Shown: positions 33,431 to 45,500 of the stretch, piece by piece
Position numbering within the stretch: position 1 is the first letter of the stretch
Layout: each line of letters starts with the position of its first letter
Source of the DNA: Hyphochytrium catenoides
Taxonomy: Eukaryota; Sar; Hyphochytriomycetes; Hyphochytriales; Hyphochytriaceae
Assembly (NCBI GenBank): GCA_900088475.1
Contig: FLMG01001379.1
Span: forward strand, 1 to 64,000
Length of the DNA stretch: 64,000 bases
Reading direction: 5' to 3'
Position numbers and translations under genes: made by a program
Notes under the pieces: model-generated
What the model saw: only the letters and a program-made list of their open reading frames with translations
The model's database searches: none
What the model was told of the DNA's origin: nothing

Positions 33431-34576
33431 ATGGTAGAGACAAGGCATAACCCAGTAGCTCCGGAGCTTGGATCTCTCCGGACGGTGGACATGTTCACTG
33501 CCATACAGATTAGGGGCTTGACCATCCGGAACCGGATCATGTTGAGCCCAATGTGCATGTACCATTGTGAAAACAAGGACGGAGTTGCATCTGACTTCCA
33601 CGTCATGCACTACGGAACAAGGGCGCTGGGAGGGACTGGCATTGTATGCGTAGAGGCAACCGCAGTGGAACCAAAGGGCCGAATTTCTCCTCAAGATCTA
33701 GGGATTTGGGGTGACGAGCATGTAGAGCCTCTTAAGCGGGTCACTAGCATTATCAAGGAGAATGGCGCTGTCCCAGCCATTCAGCTAGCTCATGCAGGAA
33801 GAAAAGCAGCAACTTATAGGCCCTGGGGCGTAGGTACTAAGAGAGGGGCTATTCCTGAGGACGAGAGCTGGGAACTTGATGCTCCAAGTTCTATCGCATG
33901 GGGCACGCACTATCCTACCCCTCGTGAGCTAACTGTGGACGAGATCAAGGAGAAGGTCAATCTCTTCAAGCAAGCTGCAGAGAGAGCCCTAGCCGCCGGG
34001 TTCCAGATTATTGAGATTCATGGGGCCCACGGCTATCTCATCCACGAGTTCCTTTCGCCTGTCACCAACAAGCGGACGGACAGCTATGGCGGGAGCTTCG
34101 AGAATCGTATAAGCTTTCTCTTGGAAGTCGTGGATGCCGTTAGGAGTGTATGGCCCGAAGATCTTCCTGTGTTCCTCCGTATTTCAGCTGATGATTGGCA
34201 TGAGAGTGGCTGGACGCCAGAAGACTCTGCTCGTCTAGCCCAAGTGGTAAGGGAACACGGCGTGGACCTTGTCGATTGCTCCGCAGGAGCTATCTCAAAC
34301 GACGTCAAGTACCCAGCATCTCTCGGTCAGCAAGGCTATCAAATTTACCTCGCTGAGAAGGTGAAGAAGGAAGGCGGCGGTGTGCTTTCAGGCGCCGTAG
34401 GAGGCATCAAGGAGCCTGCATTTGCCGACAGCATTATAAAGGAGGGTAAAGCTGACATCGTGATTATTGGGCGGCAAATGCTTGCAGACCCATTCTGGCC
34501 TAATCATGCAGCTGTGGAGCTGAAGCAGAGAGAGCGGTTAGACTATGCCCCAGTCTACAGATGGGCGATCAAGTAA
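33431..34576 (+). CDS. old-yellow-enzyme-family oxidoreductase, YqjM type
   Basis: Single exon, 381 residues. It is an FMN-binding TIM-barrel ene-reductase of the YqjM (thermophilic-like) class: SPMCMY (39-44) with the flavin-tuning Cys, QLAHAGRK (118-125), the active-site pair in HGAHGY (His197 and His200), and LRISADDW. It reduces activated C=C bonds with NAD(P)H; the natural substrate is unknown. A second Met at residue 21 begins MFTAIQIRGL, where bacterial homologues usually start, so the true start may be 33491. The bacterial-type class and the lack of introns are compatible with gene transfer. Confidence 0.92.
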   Translation: MVETRHNPVAPELGSLRTVDMFTAIQIRGLTIRNRIMLSPMCMYHCENKDGVASDFHVMHYGTRALGGTGIVCVEATAVEPKGRISPQDLGIWGDEHVEPLKRVTSIIKENGAVPAIQLAHAGRKAATYRPWGVGTKRGAIPEDESWELDAPSSIAWGTHYPTPRELTVDEIKEKVNLFKQAAERALAAGFQIIEIHGAHGYLIHEFLSPVTNKRTDSYGGSFENRISFLLEVVDAVRSVWPEDLPVFLRISADDWHESGWTPEDSARLAQVVREHGVDLVDCSAGAISNDVKYPASLGQQGYQIYLAEKVKKEGGGVLSGAVGGIKEPAFADSIIKEGKADIVIIGRQMLADPFWPNHAAVELKQRERLDYAPVYRWAIK

Positions 34577-35464: not shown

Positions 35465-38400
35465 ATGACAGTAGCACAAGTTCTCCTCTTCCTACTATCG
35501 ATTCAGACTTATGGAAAGTTTACGGTGGCAACCCGTGCAGGTGACGATATGCTGCTTCCTTGACTGACCCGATGCAGGCCTTTAACCATAACCCGCTCAT
35601 GCACCCCTGCGCCTATAACTTGACACTCCTGCTGTCTACCCTCGGTGTCTGCGACTCCCAGCTTGGTTGGAGGCTTCCGATAACTGTACGCAAGCCTGCT
35701 TTCAATATTGTGCTTGTCCATTGGGCATAAATAAGGTGCAGAGCTTACACACAATAGCTGCTGCATGATAGCGTGTTGATGGGTTTGAATGACGCTCTTC
35801 CAGGTACCTTGTAGCGGGAATGGGAACTGTATCGAGGGTGTCTGCCAGTGCTTCGGTGGATTTGAATCGTCTGATCCTACTCAAGCAAACTGCGATGTTT
35901 GTAAGTGGAAGGAGTGTGCCAGTTCCCTCTGCCAACCTGGATCTTCAGACATCAAGTGCTACCTGATCCGCTTCTGTCCCTCCTTGCCTAAGTCTTATAA
36001 GGTTGATTGTCTTTTCCCTCCTCGCCTGTCAATCCAGTAGTCTAGTAGCTTCTCTCCTTTGATGCAGTAGCTCTCCTCAGCTAAGCCTCCCTAGACCCTG
36101 GTATGTTAAGTTAACAGCACTTTCTTAACATCTGCAGTGGTTCTTGGCATAAGCAGCTACCCGTACCTCATAGCTACCACTGCAGCAGCCATCACTCTCA
36201 TCATTACCATCCCGTCCTCGCTCATGGTTTTCCTACTGCGGCGGAAGAAGTCAATCATTGAGATGAGGCCAATTCTTTCCCAGCTGATCAATGGTGGCGT
36301 GGTTCTAGGAATGAGCGCTCTTCTATATGCCCTGAATAATGAATCTTCCAACGCGGATTGTGCTGCCATCTGGGCCGTACTGGACTACTCCTTCGTCATT
36401 ACGTATGGGACGCTTCTCCTCAAGGTACACCGCATCTCATTCTACGATGTGCGGGACACACTCAGGTTTGGCGCTTAGTGGCATGTCTTGTGGTTGCAGA
36501 TGTTGAGTATCTCTCGGACTGTGACATCCAAGAACTCCATTGCATTGGACGACCGATGGGTTATGAAGGGCCTACTAGCCCTCCTCCTCATCAACACAGC
36601 TGTACTTGGTATTGTGTATGGTAAAATGACCCTCGTCTATCTCAGAACTCATCCCTTGATCGCCTGACTACTTCTTCCTCCTTTTCCGATATGGAAAAGG
36701 GGTTCAGGGCGTGGACACTTTCAGTGACAGTCAGACAGCGAGTCAGCTTAGCCGGGAGGAGGGAATCACTGCTATGGTAAGGAACCTTGGTCAGCGGTAA
36801 CTAGATGGCTTAAGCATTCATGTCTTTGGAAATACGCCAAGAACTTTCAGTCCTGTTGCCCGACTTGGGTTGGGGCTCTAGTCTGTGCCAGTCGCCCAGT
36901 TCTATCTCTTGACAACTGAGAGTAGAACCTTGAAGTTTTATAGCACGTCTTCTCCACAATTGCCTGACTTTCTCGGACCGCCACAGGGCCCGGACCAGTC
37001 TGATGAATATTTAATCTTGCTGTGCTTCTGATTGGTACAGACATATCGCGGCTGTGTCTTGAGAGACTATGGCCTCATTCTCTCCATAATCATAACTAAG
37101 GCCCTCCTTGTCCTTGGAACTTTCATCATCAGCTTCAGGTCCAGAAGGGCCCCGGAGCCCCATGGAGGTATGCAGATTGTTATTGGGATATTCATATTCC
37201 GGCCGTTATTGTCTCGCCTTACATTCCCCATTCTTACCTCTCTCTTCCAGCGGAGAGTCGGGCCATTCTCTTCGCCATCTTCACTTCGGGTTGCGGTTGG
37301 GGTGTGGCCGGGCTACTCCTACTTCCCAATCTTCAGGTCCCTGGCGTAAATTATCAGTATATGTGTGTCTCCATAGGCATGGCGCTTTCCTTCGTAAGTA
37401 TTCACTACTAACTGGTCGTTCCCTACTTTCGGCTAGTCAATGGTTGTAACATCTCACTTTACTGCTCAATATCCTTAACATGGTCTCATCGCCGACCATC
37501 CCTCTCTCACTGAACTGCTCTCGTGTCCAGAGTATCTGTGTTCTATCTTCGGTGGGTCCTGCAATGCGTAACCATTTCTATAGCAGCCGCTCACGGTTTC
37601 TGGTAAGTGGCTTGTCCTCGATAACACTAAGCCTTCACCCCCAGGATCCTCATTATGCTCACCAATATCACCCCATTGCCTCTCTGTGGCTTATTGCCCA
37701 CAGATTGCTCCAGTCCATTTTTTGAGCCTATCAGCTAAAGGAGACGGGCTTAATGTGCAGGACCCTGGCAGCGTTAATGACCTGCTTATAAAGACCGACT
37801 GGTCAGGTAAGTTGAGGAACAATGTGGCCGATAGAGCGACAAAGGAACTTCATCCACACCCTCATTCGGCGGGGCAGAGCGCAGCGTGCATCCCATCTAA
37901 AGTAGGGCGAGAAAAGAAGGCTGGTTACCAGGCAGATAACAGGGAACATAAGACATTGACAGTCTTTCCTTAGACTTCAATAAGGTGGAAAGACTACACC
38001 AGCAGTTGGAGACATTGGGCTACCCGCTCACATCGTTGCCAGAGCTTCTTCTTTTCCTCCTGTCCGGGGACATCAAGATAAATAAAATGAGAGCCTATGC
38101 GGTGCGCTGTCTAAAGGTATTCGGCCCTTGCAGCCTTTCATCGTGTTGCCATGGCAGAAGATCCTTCGTCCTCCACTGTCTTTATCTGATCTTGGGCTCC
38201 CTCATGGTCCGTAATCAATGTCACGCTTAACTGTGTACTCTTTGTTCTCAAGCTTGCGCGATTTATCTCAGCTTTCCACTCGTGAATCTCTTCTTGGCAT
38301 TCTTGGTCGCCCTGCACCGAATGATGTACTCCATGGGCCTCAGTTTGCACCTGCCTTCAGGAGCTGGACAGCACAGACCTGGAGTTCCTACTCCCACAAT

Positions 38401-41400
38401 TGGTACAGGCTCTACGTTATGAGCCCCAGCTCAATGATCCTTCTTGTGGCCATTCTGAAACCCGGCATGCCTGCGAGGATGAGAGCCCGCTTGCATCCTT
38501 TTTAATAGCAAGAGCGATAGAAGAGGAGGTGTTCGGCACTGCTTTCCATTGGCAACTAGAAGTAGAGCTTCATGCCGAGATGTTGGTTACCTACAATGTG
38601 GTACGAGGCAGGAAGAGACTTGTAGAGATGTCGGTCTCCTTTTTCTTCGTCCTATATAGGCTCCTTCGGCTCCCTTTTCCCTTCTTGTTTCAGGCCTGCC
38701 TAGGCTAATATGCATACGAGGAGTCAACGGATTCCGTAGATAGAACCAACACAGCCTGTCCTTCGACTGTTGCTAAGCTAAGCCTGGTTGGCGCCGTAGG
38801 ACGGATTTCTTAAGAAGGTGTCCAGACCGAGTGATGTCATTTACATCTACAAAGGGTAAGTTGACCTGCTGAGGCGAGAGAACGAAGGCAAAATGAGAGA
38901 GCAGCCGGTTCTGAGCAATGGCTGTCGACGGCCATATCCAGGACCAATGCTCGCACTCTTATACCCATATGATTGCCAGGGTTCAAGAAGTATTCATGCG
39001 AGAGCTGAAGGCAAAAAACCCCGAGCTGCTGCAAAAGATTCAAAACCAGCGCAACTTCATGGCCAGGATTCATGAGGCGTGGAACGAGGCTGATGAGGAG
39101 GGAGGGAGCGCCTCCCAGAAGACAACCTATCTGCAAAAGAGTCTGGAAGCAGGGTAAGGATTGGCTAGTAGATTGCCCTCTGAAGTAAAAGAAGGTGGTC
39201 ATCTGGTAAAGTCCATCAATGACCGTAAGAGAAGACAGAGAGGACGGAGAAGAGCGAGGAGGAGTTAAGATAAATGGAAGTAGAGTAGTACGGGGTGAAG
39301 AAACACGTAGTCTCAGGAAGCGCAGGGTTGAAGACATTCAGAAGCAAGGCTAATAGCTTTTTTCTTACGCAAGCGGGAAGTACGAAGACCTTGCACTTCT
39401 GTCACCTGGCACTACCCACCCACTTTACCCTCAAGTGATAGTCAAAGGACTAGATCCTCGTGGCTGCTTTTTTCTGAAGAGCAAGACACGACCCCTTTTG
39501 GTTGACTTTGTCATAGACAAGGAGGCTATGATCAAGCGTGAAGAGGAAAGGATAAGGACCAAGGAAATGGTGGGCTACCTCCTCTCGGTCTCCATGACAG
39601 ACCGCTCCATACTGCAGTGTGTGATACCCCTGTCTCCTAAGCCCTATCACAGACTGCTCCTATTTATTGACTGTTGCCCTGGTAGATCTAGAGTTTAACT
39701 TAGAGCTCTCGACTTTGCAGGAAGAGTTCTACTCTGAAGACGATCAGGTACCCCAAGGAACTAAAAAGATTGCCAGCTACATTCAAAATGGGACCCTTAC
39801 GTCCTACACTTCGCTCATCATTTGGCTAATCCTTTCACCCATGCGCGCCTGTCTGTAGGTCAACGCTAAGAAGTACCGCATCAAAATAAAGAACCTGAAA
39901 GCAGAGCAACTCCTGAACTTTGACTCCAGCAGCCTAAGTGACCCTTTCATCTGTGTCGAGTGTCTAGGCAGAATAAAGGCCACAGAGTAAGACCTCTTGC
40001 GACACGGTCTTTCGCACGCTTAATATTCTTCTATAGACTTCCCTGAGCTTCAAGGCTTTCCTTTTTTCTTGGTTATCTCCTCTGAGCATACGTTGAGTAG
40101 GCTCTGACAGTTGTCTCTTACTTACGTATTAGGACTGTCATGGACTCTCTCTCTCCCCACTGGAAGGAAGAACTAGTTTTCACCGTCGGGCTGCGTCCCG
40201 ATGTCCTGCTCTTCTCCTTGTTTGATGATGATGACTTTGGCAGTGAGAAGAAGGGTGATCATAAACGAAAGAAAGACTTTCTTGGAGAGAATAGTGTTCT
40301 CATTGAGGATGGCTGGTGGTCTATGAGGTTAGTCCTTCCCTAGTTTGCCCCGTTCTCTTTGTGCTCAGATGTGTACGTGTTGCAAGGCATTTTCTGTGGG
40401 CTTGGCAATGCTACTTTGATCTCTGGAGCCGCTGTTCTTCATTAGTGACTCTTATCAAGTCTCTGGTCTTGCAGCAATGCGCTGATCTAAGCTTCTGACG
40501 TGAACAGTCCCGAAGACCAAGAACGCACAGAAAGGACCCTAGAGCTTGAATTGGAGAGAGTGAGGAGAGGAGGAGGTGGAACGGAGAAAATTAAGAGTGG
40601 CAAAGTACACTTTAGTATAATCTGCGAGGAACTCGCGCCTCATTCCCCACAACCGCCATCCTCGTCTCTTCCGCCTGTTCCCGGTGCAGTCGCTCATAAG
40701 TTCACTCCCATCGCACCTAGTGCCCTGGAGAGCAACTACAGAGAAAGAGCGAGACAAGCAGTTGAAGGATTTCTCTCGTCACACTCCTGCCGGCTAATTT
40801 ACAAAGCAGGGGACAATCTTCGCCAAGACGTACTGGCGCTACAACTGATGGGACACTTTGATTTTGTTCTGAAGCAGAGGGGCTTTGACTCGAAGATCAC
40901 AAAGTACGGTTGTCTACCACTAGAGCCCACCCGGGTAAGCTCTTGTCCTCTTTGTTTCTAAACTCTCTAGTGTTTTAGCTGAGCTATAGGTCCTGCCAAT
41001 ATTTGCCTACGGGGTGCTGCCTCTCCTGGTTTCATCGACATTTCCATTATTCTGTCTCCTATACCTTGCAGCAGCCGTTGCCGTGTCCGTCTTGTTGGTC
41101 ATCTTACTCTCATTAAATACTAACCACTCCGCTTAACTGTATCGATTGCTGGGTGTCACATGTCTCGGATCTCCTCAGGGTTTCATTGAAGTTGTCGACG
41201 CTATCCCCATCAGCAGAGCCCTGAGTGATTATAGCTCGCTCTCCTCCTTCCTCAAGAGCAAAGCTGGCGATATAGTCATGCCCAATGGTCTCGTTTCTGA
41301 ACCAGCTTTTCATTTGCATGCCTCGTCTCCCCTTCCAGCTTCGCCGTGAATACTCTCTCCACTGCGCTACGAACTTGATGTTAACACTTAGTGTATCTGG

Positions 41401-42347
41401 CCTTCTGTCTAGAAGAATATGCTGCCCCATTCAGCATTCTTCCATGGCCATTAATAGCGTTCGCCATTGCGATCTTTACCTCTCATTCTTCTCGTAGGCA
41501 TTCAGAAGGATATCTACAGCAACTACGTGCATTCCCTTGCGTCTGCCTGTGTACTTTCCTTCGTGCTGGGGGTGGGAGATCGCCATCTGGACAACATCAT
41601 GATAAGCCCTTGTGGGAAAGTGTTGCATATAGACTTTGGATTTCTCTTTGGGAATGATCCGAAACCATCTCCCCCTCCATTCCGTCTCACACCTGAGATG
41701 GTGGCCGTTCTGGGAGGTCCAAGAAGTAAGGTGAGAGTATAAAACGACGAGGTCACGAAAGTAGGACTTAGAGGAGAATACGCTATGGTGCCAGATAGCG
41801 CAGGGCAACTAAGCGCTAGCAGACGCAAGGGGGGTGGGCCACTAAGCAAGCAGGGCCAGTGAACTGACAGTTTCCCGCTCCTGTGGGTTATCCTCTGCTG
41901 CCAGGAGTTCAAGTTCTTCATACGCCTTTGTCAAGACATCTACATCACCATACGCGGATCACCATCCCTCTATCTGATGATGGTCAATCTTATGAGAGAT
42001 GCAGGCATACCTGACCTACAAGAAAAGCCAGATAGAGTTCTTGCGGAGGTGAGTAAGTCTCTGACATGGCTCATGCCCAATCCTCTCTATCTTTCGGTCC
42101 GTGTAGATGTAAGTAGCTCTCAGTTTTTGAATGTCTGCTCTCGAGCCGAAGGATAAGCGATGTATGAATCTATCATAACCGAGCTTCTCGCTTAATTCAG
42201 CTCCGCGCCAGATTGCTGCTTGGCAAGGACGATAAGAGGGCCCAAAAGTTTATGAAGCGGTTGGTACTGGAGAGTCAACAGCTCAGTACAGCTGTCCGGC
42301 TTAGCGTACAAGAGCTCCTTCACAAGTTTGCCGTCACTTTGTCATAA
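35465..42347 (+). CDS. class-C-like 7TM receptor fused to PI3-kinase
   Basis: Twenty-three exons: 35465-35540, 35662-35735, 35804-35900, 36138-36424, 36500-36620, 36700-36776, 37041-37167, 37251-37393, 37531-37602, 37704-37806, 37974-38116, 38361-38600, 38800-38855, 38980-39153, 39374-39569, 39721-39747, 39859-39986, 40133-40327, 40508-40934, 41179-41287, 41498-41730, 41905-42048 and 42201-42347. All 22 junctions are phase-consistent, giving 1131 residues. Order: signal peptide; Cys-rich EGF-like ectodomain (to about 82); seven-helix domain (83-358) with class C traits (LLLKMLSISR, then the loop before TM6 and GCGWGVAGLLLL); PI3K helical domain (359-520; YAVRCLKELD, LLPQLVQALRYE); first kinase strands (597-662; RPLLVDF); C2 insert (about 672-820); catalytic domain with LIYKAGDNLRQD (Lys878), GVGDRHLDN (984-990) and HIDFGFLFGNDPKPSPPP. 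All catalytic residues are present. The weakest junctions are the 27-base exon 16 and the GTCTCG donor at 41288. The fusion rests on the 37602/37704 junction. Confidence 0.78.
39859..40631 (+). other. C2 domain inserted in the PI3-kinase N-lobe
   Basis: Exons 17, 18 and the start of 19 encode a C2-like beta-sandwich: KKYRIKIKNLKAEQL, LSDPFICVECLG, DSLSPHWKEELVF, LLFSLFDDDDFGS, DFLGENSVLI and, after a charged linker, GKVHFSIICEE. The flanking sequence is kinase on both sides: RPLLVDF before and SCRLIYKAGDNLRQD after. Acidic residues at the SDPF and DDDD loops could bind calcium. Confidence 0.75.
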
Positions 42348-42514: not shown

Positions 42515-45500
42515 CTATAGCCACTGCATTGCTTTGAAGGAGTAGTGAGTACTAAAACAGAAAGACATCGCCAGGAGCCACCAATACAGGTAGCCGTATC
42601 GCTCCCGTAGCTCCGGCATAATATCGAAGTTCATCCCATACACACCAGTCAAGAACTGCGCTGGCAAGAAAACAGCAAACACAATGATTGCAATCTTCAT
42701 CCTCTTCTCAATGCGTGCCTCCTATATTCAGATCAATGTGCAAAGCGGACAAGAGAGTGAGTTTGGTCACTGCATCTGATCGTCGCTAGTAAGATGCATT
42801 CACCCTACCTGCATCTTGTAGAAAGCATAGGTTAATTTACGGCATTGAGAGATAAAAGTGTCCACAAGTTCAACGGCCTGAGAGGAAAGCGATTAGTCAA
42901 GACCAAACCGCTTCCAAAAGAAACGCCGTCTGCACTGCAATTAGCAAGGACATCAGCAGCAGTGGAGGGTACAAAGGTGAATCGACGGGAAAGCCTTGGA
43001 GTGAACAAAGGTGACGAAAACTAAGAGCCATAGGTTATTGGGTAAAGAACATCAAACAAGGATCGCCAAAAGTGCTGGTAGAGATAAGAGGCGCATACAT
43101 CGCTGGCATCATCTCTCGTATCTCTTAAGTAGAAGACAGTGTTGGTATCTATGGCAGATGCTGCGATGAACTGATTGATGACATCAAGGTAGGGAAAGAG
43201 AATGCGACGAAGCTTGGCCAGTTGACCGCTGTGACAGAAGATGCATTAGTGACACTTTCCATGTATTGTAGATGCCATCTGGCGCAGTAAGCATCTCCAT
43301 TCCCACAATGACATTCTAGAGTAACCTTTGAGCGAGATTCGCTGCTTACCTAAGCCTATGTATTCGCGAAATCTGGAATTGGTGGCGTTCAATGTTCATC
43401 TCGTGCTCAAGTATCTCAAGCTGCGTCTGAAAGGCCTCGACAACTGCCTATCATAAGCAGGAAGGAAGAGCAGCGCTTAGTGAACTCTTTCGCAAGCGCT
43501 ATGATGTGTTGAGAAGGTGGCCCAGCGAGGTGACCATGCAGATATTGAGAGGCTAGGTGACAGTAGGCTAATGTATAAGGAATTTAGGAATTAGGCGCGC
43601 AAGGTGACAAATAGTCACCACACAGAGCCAAGACCGGCGACTTTTGGGAGAGCCTGGTGAGACTCAAGGAAGAGGGTTGCTAAGTTAGAATCAGGTCAGG
43701 AGACTCACCTTTGCCTCTCTAACCAGTTGATTTAGTATCTCATACGTTAGGAAGACTGCTCCTCCTGTCCTAAGCCGCGAAAGGCGATGGTTCATCTTCG
43801 CCACAATACCGCTCCACAAATGAGGAGGGCATTGGTCTAATATGGTCAACACTGTGCAGTCTTCGACTACCAGGATGTTGACCTATGCCACAATGCTAGT
43901 TAATGCAGAGTATCCGAATGAAGGGCAATTTGATATCATTCACTCACGACCAGGAATCACGACGAAGGACCATAGGTTGAAAGCCATTCATTGCAATGAA
44001 TATGAGGGTAACATGAAACGGCAAGACCATCACACTTTGAGGTTATCTATGGATGTAATCAGGAACAGTGACACGGACATCTAATAACTCAGTCACGAGG
44101 AGGGAAAGGGGAAGAAAGAAGGGGATGTGGTATCTTCATCTTAAAACCCACCTGACCAAGCTTCAATTGCGTAAGATCGTCCATTGCAGGAATTGAGGGG
44201 GCAATTGAGGAGAGACTGTTTCCCTCGCTGTTCATAGAAAGGCGCTCCTCCAACTCTTCTAAAGCCTGATCTTTACGTTTGAGCTCCCTTATCGTTAATG
44301 CCTCCTCCACCTCCTCACTTTCTCCAAGAAGATGCAGCTGTTCCTCGGGGCCTCCAACCGATCTCCTCGACGCTGAGCTGCAACAACACGTTAAGCTCTA
44401 TTCAGCAGAGCTGATGAGAAGAAGGCACTACAAAGAAGGCTCTATTCTCCCACCGTAACCAAGCCTTGCTCTGTAAGCGCATAAGACGGCGTATAGCGTC
44501 GTTCCACTGCCCCGACCGTCTACCTCCTTGGACCTTAGGACTGCCAGCTAAGGTTCCGTATCTAAGGAGGAATTGGTGAGTAACGGTATCAGACAGATAT
44601 GGAGCCTGAAGCAAAAGGAAGCTTCGTCATTGCAAAGTTTATAGTTTGCCTCTACCTGGAAGTATGCCGATGAAGGGCTTGGGGAGACGAGATATTGTGA
44701 GGACTGCTGCCAGTGCTGGAGACTCCTAGTGCGGCGCCTCTCTTGTCCGGTCCGGAGATATTGTTGAATTTCGTGGTGGTCCAGCCGTACCATATTCTAG
44801 ATGGTTTGGCCAGCAGGTTTCCCCCATCAATCTCATCATGATGGAAGGAGCCGTCATCTTCGTCTCCGTCTTCGACGTTCCCCTGCCCTAGTTGAACGAC
44901 CGGTAGCACAATAAACAAATGATGCTCGTGCTGCTCAATCTTCGGTCGTTGACCTAGGTGAGGAAGCAACAGAAGTCAATACGTATCGAAGATTACAAAT
45001 AAGCACATAACGAGCACAAGAGCCTTCAGCTAACAGAGAAAGAGGGAGGAGGGGAAGACATTTTTTTGCGCAAGCAGACAGCTAGGTTCCTGATGGACGG
45101 TTATTAGTAACACTAACCAAAGTGAAGAATGTCTTCAACTGCCAGGGGATGCAGCCTGTGCTTCACTGCTAGCCGCTTAAGAGCCAACTCGTTAACTCCA
45201 CGTAGATTGACCCACCGAACAGTTGCCCAGGGGGGTAGGTTTGAATAGGTAAACCCTTCGAAGTCCTTGACGTGAAACAGAGAGCGCACCCTAAAAGAAA
45301 ATGTTAAATCGCTGTCAAGAGGAGAATGTTATCGAATAGGCCCTCAACGAAATGCAGAGGACAACCACTAGCAGGCAGCTAAAAAAAGCATTCAGGAGTG
45401 CGCATCTGTTCTACAACATACAGTCTAGCCACGTGAAAATGACCAATTCAGCTTACCTTGATGGAGAATAGTCATGGACATCGAGTTCAACCGTGTCCTT

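Follow-up and report, generated by a model that had tools for sequence, protein, structure and literature searches.

A predicted class C-like receptor joined to a class III-type phosphoinositide 3-kinase in Hyphochytrium catenoides and Saprolegniales oomycetes

We analysed a 64-kb stretch of the Hyphochytrium catenoides genome (contig FLMG01001379.1, positions 1 to 64,000; hereafter the window) and found that positions 35465–42347 on its plus strand hold one predicted gene that unites a class C-like seven-transmembrane (7TM) receptor with a phosphoinositide 3-kinase (PI3K) module. The gene has 23 phase-consistent exons and encodes 1131 residues with zero internal stops, matching in exon number and length what a sequence-only reading of the same stretch had put forward. 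Its preferred interpretation, to which we assign a probability of about 0.6, is that of a single receptor-enzyme, a ligand-responsive class C 7TM region joined to a class III-type PI3K that would make phosphatidylinositol 3-phosphate (PI3P), belonging to a family shared with the Saprolegniales.

A fused family and the junction that defines it

We searched 5.8 billion proteins with the kinase region and considered the best 120 of 242 matches, with expectation values (E) of 1e-20 or better. Ten of these 120 carry 7tm_3, PI3Ka and PI3_PI4_kinase domains in one protein. They come from Achlya hypogyna, Thraustotheca clavata, Saprolegnia diclina, Aphanomyces euteiches, A. stellatus, A. invadans and A. 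astaci (three models), all seven named species being Saprolegniales oomycetes, and include P0012, a protein from a 97-kb contig that was the top match (45% identity). All ten are colinear with the window model, the junction between receptor and kinase and the linker after it included. Half of them (P0012, P0013, P0016, P0019 and P0034) cover the whole length from ectodomain to C-terminus, with no signal peptide in P0012; the ectodomain is absent from P0015, P0028 and P0112. Public records label the ten hypothetical or unnamed proteins, or phosphatidylinositol 3-kinases by similarity, and none is functionally described. The sequence-only reading had proposed to look for the same domain order in related genomes, and it is there; on these grounds we rejected both a fusion private to the source genome and a misjoined pair of genes. 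The kinase-region search was the only one to reach the family. With about 8,000 candidates sharing the most words scored in each case, a whole-chain homology search listed 11 matches, none of them fused, and a search with the 7TM region gave no matches, negatives that would have misled. Because the kinase-region search depends on shared words and the matches considered were the best 120 of 242, we make no claim that Peronosporales (Phytophthora) lack the fusion.

We next placed the family on trees built from the kinase only, which leave out the receptor columns, that is, the trait itself. The trees, like the count of N-lobe segments given below, used seven of the ten relatives, leaving out P0082, P0091 and P0112, which lack the K-x-GDD segment. 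In a tree of 37 rows the window protein and the seven fused relatives were set apart from all other rows by a branch supported at 98/98. A second tree, of 32 rows, was built without P0006 and P0125, which are long rows outside the group, and without three others; there support was 99/98. Since the fused proteins group on a tree that is blind to the receptor, the simplest reading of these sequences is one conserved fused family with a single origin. The trees contain too few class I rows for rooting this group among the PI3K classes. In this analysis the fused gene is the one indication of kinship between the source genome and oomycetes. As a separate observation, portions of the helical or the kinase domain are missing from the A. 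astaci models P0082, P0091 and P0112, and P0112 also lacks the C-terminus. These deletions are probably skipped exons, and database annotation of the fused family may be unreliable.

The fusion turns on the junction after the seventh transmembrane segment (TM7). Exon 9 (37531–37602) ends in phase 0 at the donor CTG/GTAAGT and exon 10 (37704–37806) opens in phase 0 after the acceptor CCCACAG, so that the phase-0 join proposed from the sequence is borne out by the splice sites and by the colinear relatives. The claim that no start codon stands close before the helical domain also held: in the frame of exon 10 the nearest upstream stop lies at 37581, with no ATG from that point to 37973. An alternative acceptor before 37645, likewise foreseen, is present, and its use would add 26 residues after TM7 before a stop. 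It gives substance to the idea that the locus comprises two adjacent genes, or yields two splice outputs, one a receptor ending after TM7 and the other a separately started kinase. A further point on that side, and one against a single gene, is that an unguided, simple splice scorer reproduced exactly 13 of the 23 exons but neither of the two that flank the key junction; it also broke up real exons and modelled the ectodomain wrongly, and served as a control only. Because the scorer did not pick the junction, the sequence by itself was not decisive, and the fused relatives decided. Proteins with the same domain order in seven named species and in P0012 oppose two genes, as do the missing in-frame ATG and the mere 101 nucleotides (nt) between exons 9 and 10, and the alternative acceptor needs an intron of 42 nt, below the range of 68–264 nt seen in the 22 introns of the model. 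We consider a two-gene or two-output locus very improbable. The final exon model combines the coordinates of the sequence-only reading with inspection and with alignment to the relatives, which fixed exons 1 and 2.

An assembly or annotation artefact is the least probable explanation of all. The genome is a fragmented 42.5-Mb draft of 1105 contigs, and the three A. astaci models are marred by deletions or truncation at one end, both of which invite such a suspicion; the window, however, contains zero N, and colinear relatives in other genomes are united with its protein in one tree group. We conclude that the locus, as predicted from its sequence, is one gene combining a class C-like 7TM receptor with a PI3K module. 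Its parts are as follows.

35465–35540, plus strand: exon 1, start codon and predicted signal peptide (hydrophobic residues 3–21; donor CAG/GTGACG)
35662–35735, plus strand: exon 2, first Cys-rich part of the ectodomain, CxxxCxxxCxCPxGxN (4 Cys)
35804–35900, plus strand: exon 3, EGF-like part of the ectodomain (5 Cys; weak EGF-family matches below cut-off)
36138–36424, 36500–36620, 36700–36776, 37041–37167, 37251–37393 and 37531–37602, plus strand: exons 4–9, class C 7TM region (7tm_3)
37603–37703, plus strand: junction intron, 101 nt, with the alternative acceptor before 37645
37704–37806, 37974–38116 and 38361–38600, plus strand: exons 10–12, linker and PI3K helical (PIK) domain (PI3Ka)
38800–38855, 38980–39153 and 39374–39569, plus strand: exons 13–15, helical-to-kinase linker and first N-lobe strands (HPLYP and KS-x-[AT]-[KR]-P motifs in the alignment to relatives)
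39721–39747, 39859–39986, 40133–40327 and 40508–about 40787, plus strand: exons 16–18 and first part of exon 19, N-lobe insert with C2 domain (PF00168)
40788–40934, 41179–41287, 41498–41730, 41905–42048 and 42201–42347, plus strand: rest of exon 19 and exons 20–23, class III-like PI3K catalytic domain, to the stop (PI3_PI4_kinase)

Upstream, a NADH:flavin oxidoreductase frame ends at 34576; downstream, a CorA-type frame lies on the minus strand at 42518–42721.

The kinase half and its N-lobe insert

Domain searches with Pfam were run on an earlier model of 1137 residues, which differs from the final model in exons 1 and 2 only. The four profiles suggested for it were found in the order 7tm_3, PI3Ka, C2 and PI3_PI4_kinase, each over its curated cut-off. 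In the kinase half, PI3Ka scored 66.3 bits (E 3.3e-18; cut-off 31) and PI3_PI4_kinase reached E 6.3e-40. The catalytic motifs KAGDNLRQD, GDRHLDN, IDFG and DPKPSPPPFRL are present, the last being the activation loop, which reads DPKPLPPPMKL in Vps34. The best match in the PDB is the class III kinase PIK3C3/Vps34 at 213 bits, compared with 135 bits for the best class I chain; by these scores we rejected a class I PI3K, a producer of phosphatidylinositol 3,4,5-trisphosphate (PIP3). The trees are no arbiter of class, as they hold a single class I-type row, P0125, with P0005, P0008 and P0078 lacking the search motif. We conclude from sequence comparison that the predicted kinase is closest to class III. 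Class III PI3Ks act in a complex with Vps15 and Beclin/Vps30, and PI3P is their sole product. Given this affinity, PI3P, rather than PIP3, is the product expected from family knowledge, and the 3-phosphoinositide output that the sequence-only reading had proposed is narrowed accordingly.

The protein resembles Vps34/PIK3C3 in its helical and catalytic domains, in the DPKPxPPPxxL loop and in a C-terminal helix that ends near HKFA. It differs in having a signal peptide, an ectodomain and a 7TM region in place of the N-terminal PI3K_C2 domain, and the fused proteins differ in a long segment within the kinase N-lobe. The canonical PI3K_C2 (PF00792) was not found in the model by Pfam at E up to 1. 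A full PI3K module, as originally claimed, therefore stands for the helical and catalytic domains; its canonical C2 is missing from these results, and a different C2 lies inside the N-lobe.

We measured the N-lobe segment from the first strands to the K-x-GD motif. It spans 159–238 residues in all eight fused proteins measured, the window protein included. For other PI3Ks, measured to the same motif, the median is 44 residues and 59 of 71 have 65 or fewer. This count replaced an earlier one that was uneven because it used two motifs, with a looser one for the non-fused proteins (163–242 residues in 8/8 fused proteins; at most 65 in 75 of the 88 others, from 117). The measure depends on the motif, since the looser motif taken at its last match gives 40 residues for the window protein and no value for P0016; the alignment of the window protein with its fused relatives shows the segment directly. 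In the window protein the insert contains a C2 domain (PF00168; E 8e-10, 39.3 bits, cut-off 22) whose best matches of solved structure are otoferlin, myoferlin and Munc13-1. Profile comparison with hhalign linked a Saprolegniales insert profile to the P0012 insert (E 4.6e-8) and to the window and P0012 inserts combined (E 2.9e-6; the best of 30 column shuffles gave 0.09). From position and profile scores, the insert is likely to be of common descent in the fused family.

The acidic loops of the window C2, SDPF and FDDDDFG, resemble those of calcium-binding C2 domains; the inserts of the relatives lack them in the alignment. A lineage-specific calcium input through this C2 is possible, judging from the loops.

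The receptor half

The 7tm_3 match scored 58.6 bits (E 9.7e-16; cut-off 33.5), and 7tm_3 also exceeded its cut-off in all seven fused relatives scanned. Hydrophobicity gave seven peaks across residues 98–342 besides the signal peptide at 3–21, with borderline peaks at residues 80–98 and, inside the kinase, at 966–984 and 991–1009. One low-scoring YWFCY Pfam match overlaps the 7TM region. The ectodomain is short and EGF-like, with nine Cys. Eight of these (four in exon 2 and four of the five in exon 3) are common to all eight sequences that cover the ectodomain, a set that includes the window protein and two near-identical A. astaci models. Cys157 and Cys249, the predicted pair linking TM3 and the second outer loop, are kept in 11/11 aligned sequences. 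Identity to the four relatives compared is 38–42% in the ectodomain, 42–45% in the kinase, 21–27% in the 7TM region and 15–24% in the insert, and the greater conservation of the ectodomain relative to the 7TM region points to a conserved role in binding a ligand or in dimerization.

A Venus-flytrap or BMP-like ectodomain is common, though not universal, in class C G-protein-coupled receptors (GPCRs). No such domain was found in the model by Pfam, the only matches before TM1 being weak ones to the EGF family. The protein thus resembles class C GPCRs of the GABA-B and mGlu type in its 7tm_3 match and its TM3/second-outer-loop Cys pair; unlike them it has a short EGF-like ectodomain, no detected Venus-flytrap domain and a C-terminal lipid kinase.

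These features bear on whether the 7TM region could be a membrane anchor and nothing else, with PI3P made constitutively under regulation by calcium, dimerization or trafficking and without ligand gating. An anchor would suffice for a kinase that has no detectable PI3K_C2 to recruit it, and the 7TM region is less conserved than either the ectodomain or the kinase. Yet a signal peptide, an ectodomain of constant Cys pattern and a full 7TM region with Cys157 and Cys249 retained would be costly for a plain anchor, and we regard a role as anchor only as unlikely.

A proposed receptor PI3-kinase among known fusions

Proteins in which a 7TM receptor is joined to a C-terminal catalytic domain are known as GPCR-bigrams, with partners given as phosphatidylinositol phosphate kinases (PIPKs), INPP, AC, PDE and TKL enzymes and an aspartic protease type, and no PI3K, in the available portion of PMC6033456. 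The window protein has the bigram layout, a single chain with its 7TM region ahead of a C-terminal catalytic domain, and its catalytic domain, PI3_PI4_kinase, is none of these enzyme types. It is a new type of GPCR-bigram, combining an enzyme of the PI3K superfamily with a class C receptor. Its closest counterparts are the GPCR-PIPKs, RpkA of Dictyostelium and GK of Phytophthora, which share an N-terminal 7TM region and a C-terminal intracellular phosphoinositide kinase, as well as an oomycete distribution and a proposed direct coupling (PMC6033456; PMC3206951). Unlike theirs, the kinase here belongs to the PI3/PI4-kinase superfamily (PF00454) and not to PIP5K (PF01504), which is not among the nine Pfam families listed for the model. 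The 7TM region here is of class C, with a signal peptide and an EGF-like ectodomain, and LR(x)9GI, the linker motif of GPCR-PIPKs (PMC12716839), was not found on inspection of residues 335–395. GPCR-TKL proteins and the choanoflagellate GPCR-TKL/K also join a 7TM region to a kinase (PMC12716839), but theirs are protein-kinase folds, in contrast to the PI3K-superfamily lipid kinase here.

Searches of an open library listed no paper on a 7TM–PI3K fusion, although a paper outside that library could describe one. None appears in the available portions of PMC5784254, PMC12716839, PMC9694693, PMC2705460 and PMC3019232, which deal with GPCR-PIPKs (in mBio), GPCRs in relatives of animals (catalogued in 2025), oomycete inositol, oomycete domain fusions and the Phytophthora infestans kinome, and none of six terms looked up occurs in the Saprolegnia parasitica genome paper (PMC3681718). 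The sequence-only reading knew of no PI3K version of such fusions; in the papers searchable the type does appear undescribed, and the fusion itself is not unique to the source genome.

The rest of the H. catenoides assembly provides the setting. PI3Ka matches fall on four contigs only: C361, which holds the window, C438, C559 and C579. On the minus strand of C559 lies a class III-like PI3K, with tblastn pieces spanning residues 122–792 of P0018. We listed 15 matches to 7tm_3 in the genome, one of them the window's own; none of the 15 is on C438, C559 or C579, in a search made exon by exon in which the window receptor scored 27 bits and a second split receptor may be missed. As the other PI3K loci are on contigs without a listed 7tm_3 match, the fused gene seems to supplement the genome's other PI3Ks. 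PIP5K matches number 29, none of them on C361.

On C579, cNMP-binding, GAF, PI3K_C2, PI3Ka and PI3/PI4-kinase pieces follow one another in order on one strand (L036, 2933–8799, and L037), possibly a second sensor–PI3K fusion with a cyclic nucleotide or GAF sensor; the only PI3K_C2 match listed in the genome is on this contig. Elsewhere in the assembly, L053 (31–1305 and 1438–3003) contains a mitochondrial COX2-like frame that bears a long C-terminal extension and is followed directly by COX1, the COX2 label being tentative. A search for the large subunit of RuBisCO found none.

A G-alpha frame (L038, 217–720, minus strand) shares its contig and strand with the class III-like pieces of C559. 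With a G-alpha subunit encoded, the cell may have G-protein signalling at its disposal. This bears on the possibility that the receptor half is an ordinary GPCR, its kinase being a parallel or feedback output or one activated by a G-protein subunit, as in models C to F of PMC6033456. Besides that published framework, the G-alpha and the 14 other class C receptor matches listed, counting pieces, speak for such coupling. The fusion, however, makes a diffusible relay to the kinase unnecessary, and we judge an ordinary GPCR half to be improbable, a little more so than a role as anchor only.

For the preferred reading of a receptor-enzyme we propose the following course. The 7TM region would anchor the kinase at a signalling or endocytic membrane, replacing recruitment of the Vps15/Beclin type through the PI3K C2 domain. 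A ligand would bind the ectodomain or the 7TM region, probably of a receptor dimer such as class C receptors form, and binding would shift the position of the helical and kinase domains or the strain on them, so that phosphatidylinositol is converted to PI3P beside the receptor. PI3P would then recruit FYVE or PX proteins and promote uptake, sorting or autophagy, and the inserted C2 of the window protein, with its acidic loops, could add a calcium-dependent membrane contact. RpkA, the GPCR-PIPK of Dictyostelium, is found on endosomal membranes and phagosomes (PMC3206951), which by analogy makes an endocytic role of the fused PI3K plausible. A more specific version, which we advance tentatively and hold to be well short of even odds, is that of a ligand-gated receptor lipid kinase in which the class C 7TM region directly switches a class III PI3K and PI3P is made at the receptor's own membrane without G protein, adaptor, Vps15 or Beclin, the N-lobe insert (in the lineage of the window protein a C2 that may bind calcium) serving as a second input. 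The independence from G proteins was suggested by the sequence-only reading.

Several observations weigh against the receptor-enzyme reading. The available text of PMC6033456 calls it unprecedented for a 7TM region to control a catalytic domain directly, and the gene model and mechanism given here are predictions from sequence. The ATP-site motif of the kinase reads GDN instead of GDD, and class III membership rests on PDB-match scores, the trees holding at most one class I-type row. Support for the fused group falls to 87/93, unstarred, when P0012 is left out, and the window protein forms a long branch of 1.83 changes per column. Identity to the four relatives is as low as 21–27% in the 7TM region and 15–24% in the insert, and a sequence search of the 7TM slice against solved structures found no relative. 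Long N-lobe segments are not unique to the family, as 4 of the 71 other PI3Ks reach at least 163 residues. The C2 match in P0012 is weak (E 0.0073) and under the cut-off, and Pfam C2 was not found in the six Saprolegniales fused proteins scanned. Taken alone, the window insert matched the Saprolegniales profile with an hhalign E of 0.02 (probability 2%) and the P0012 insert with an E of 4.5e-4 (probability 33%), a moderate score.

PI3P production by Vps34 is generally seen as controlled by complex assembly and recruitment, and not by a receptor on the same chain. The fused family adds the PI3-kinase superfamily to the partners known for fused receptors, and it offers an example of a PI3K with no detectable canonical C2 domain and with a large N-lobe insert. 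The question posed by GPCR-bigrams, whether a 7TM region gates its enzyme directly, becomes testable here by one lipid readout, PI3P. If the ligand-gated version is true, a path leading from an external signal to PI3P within one protein would have been fixed in a lineage of oomycetes and their kin.

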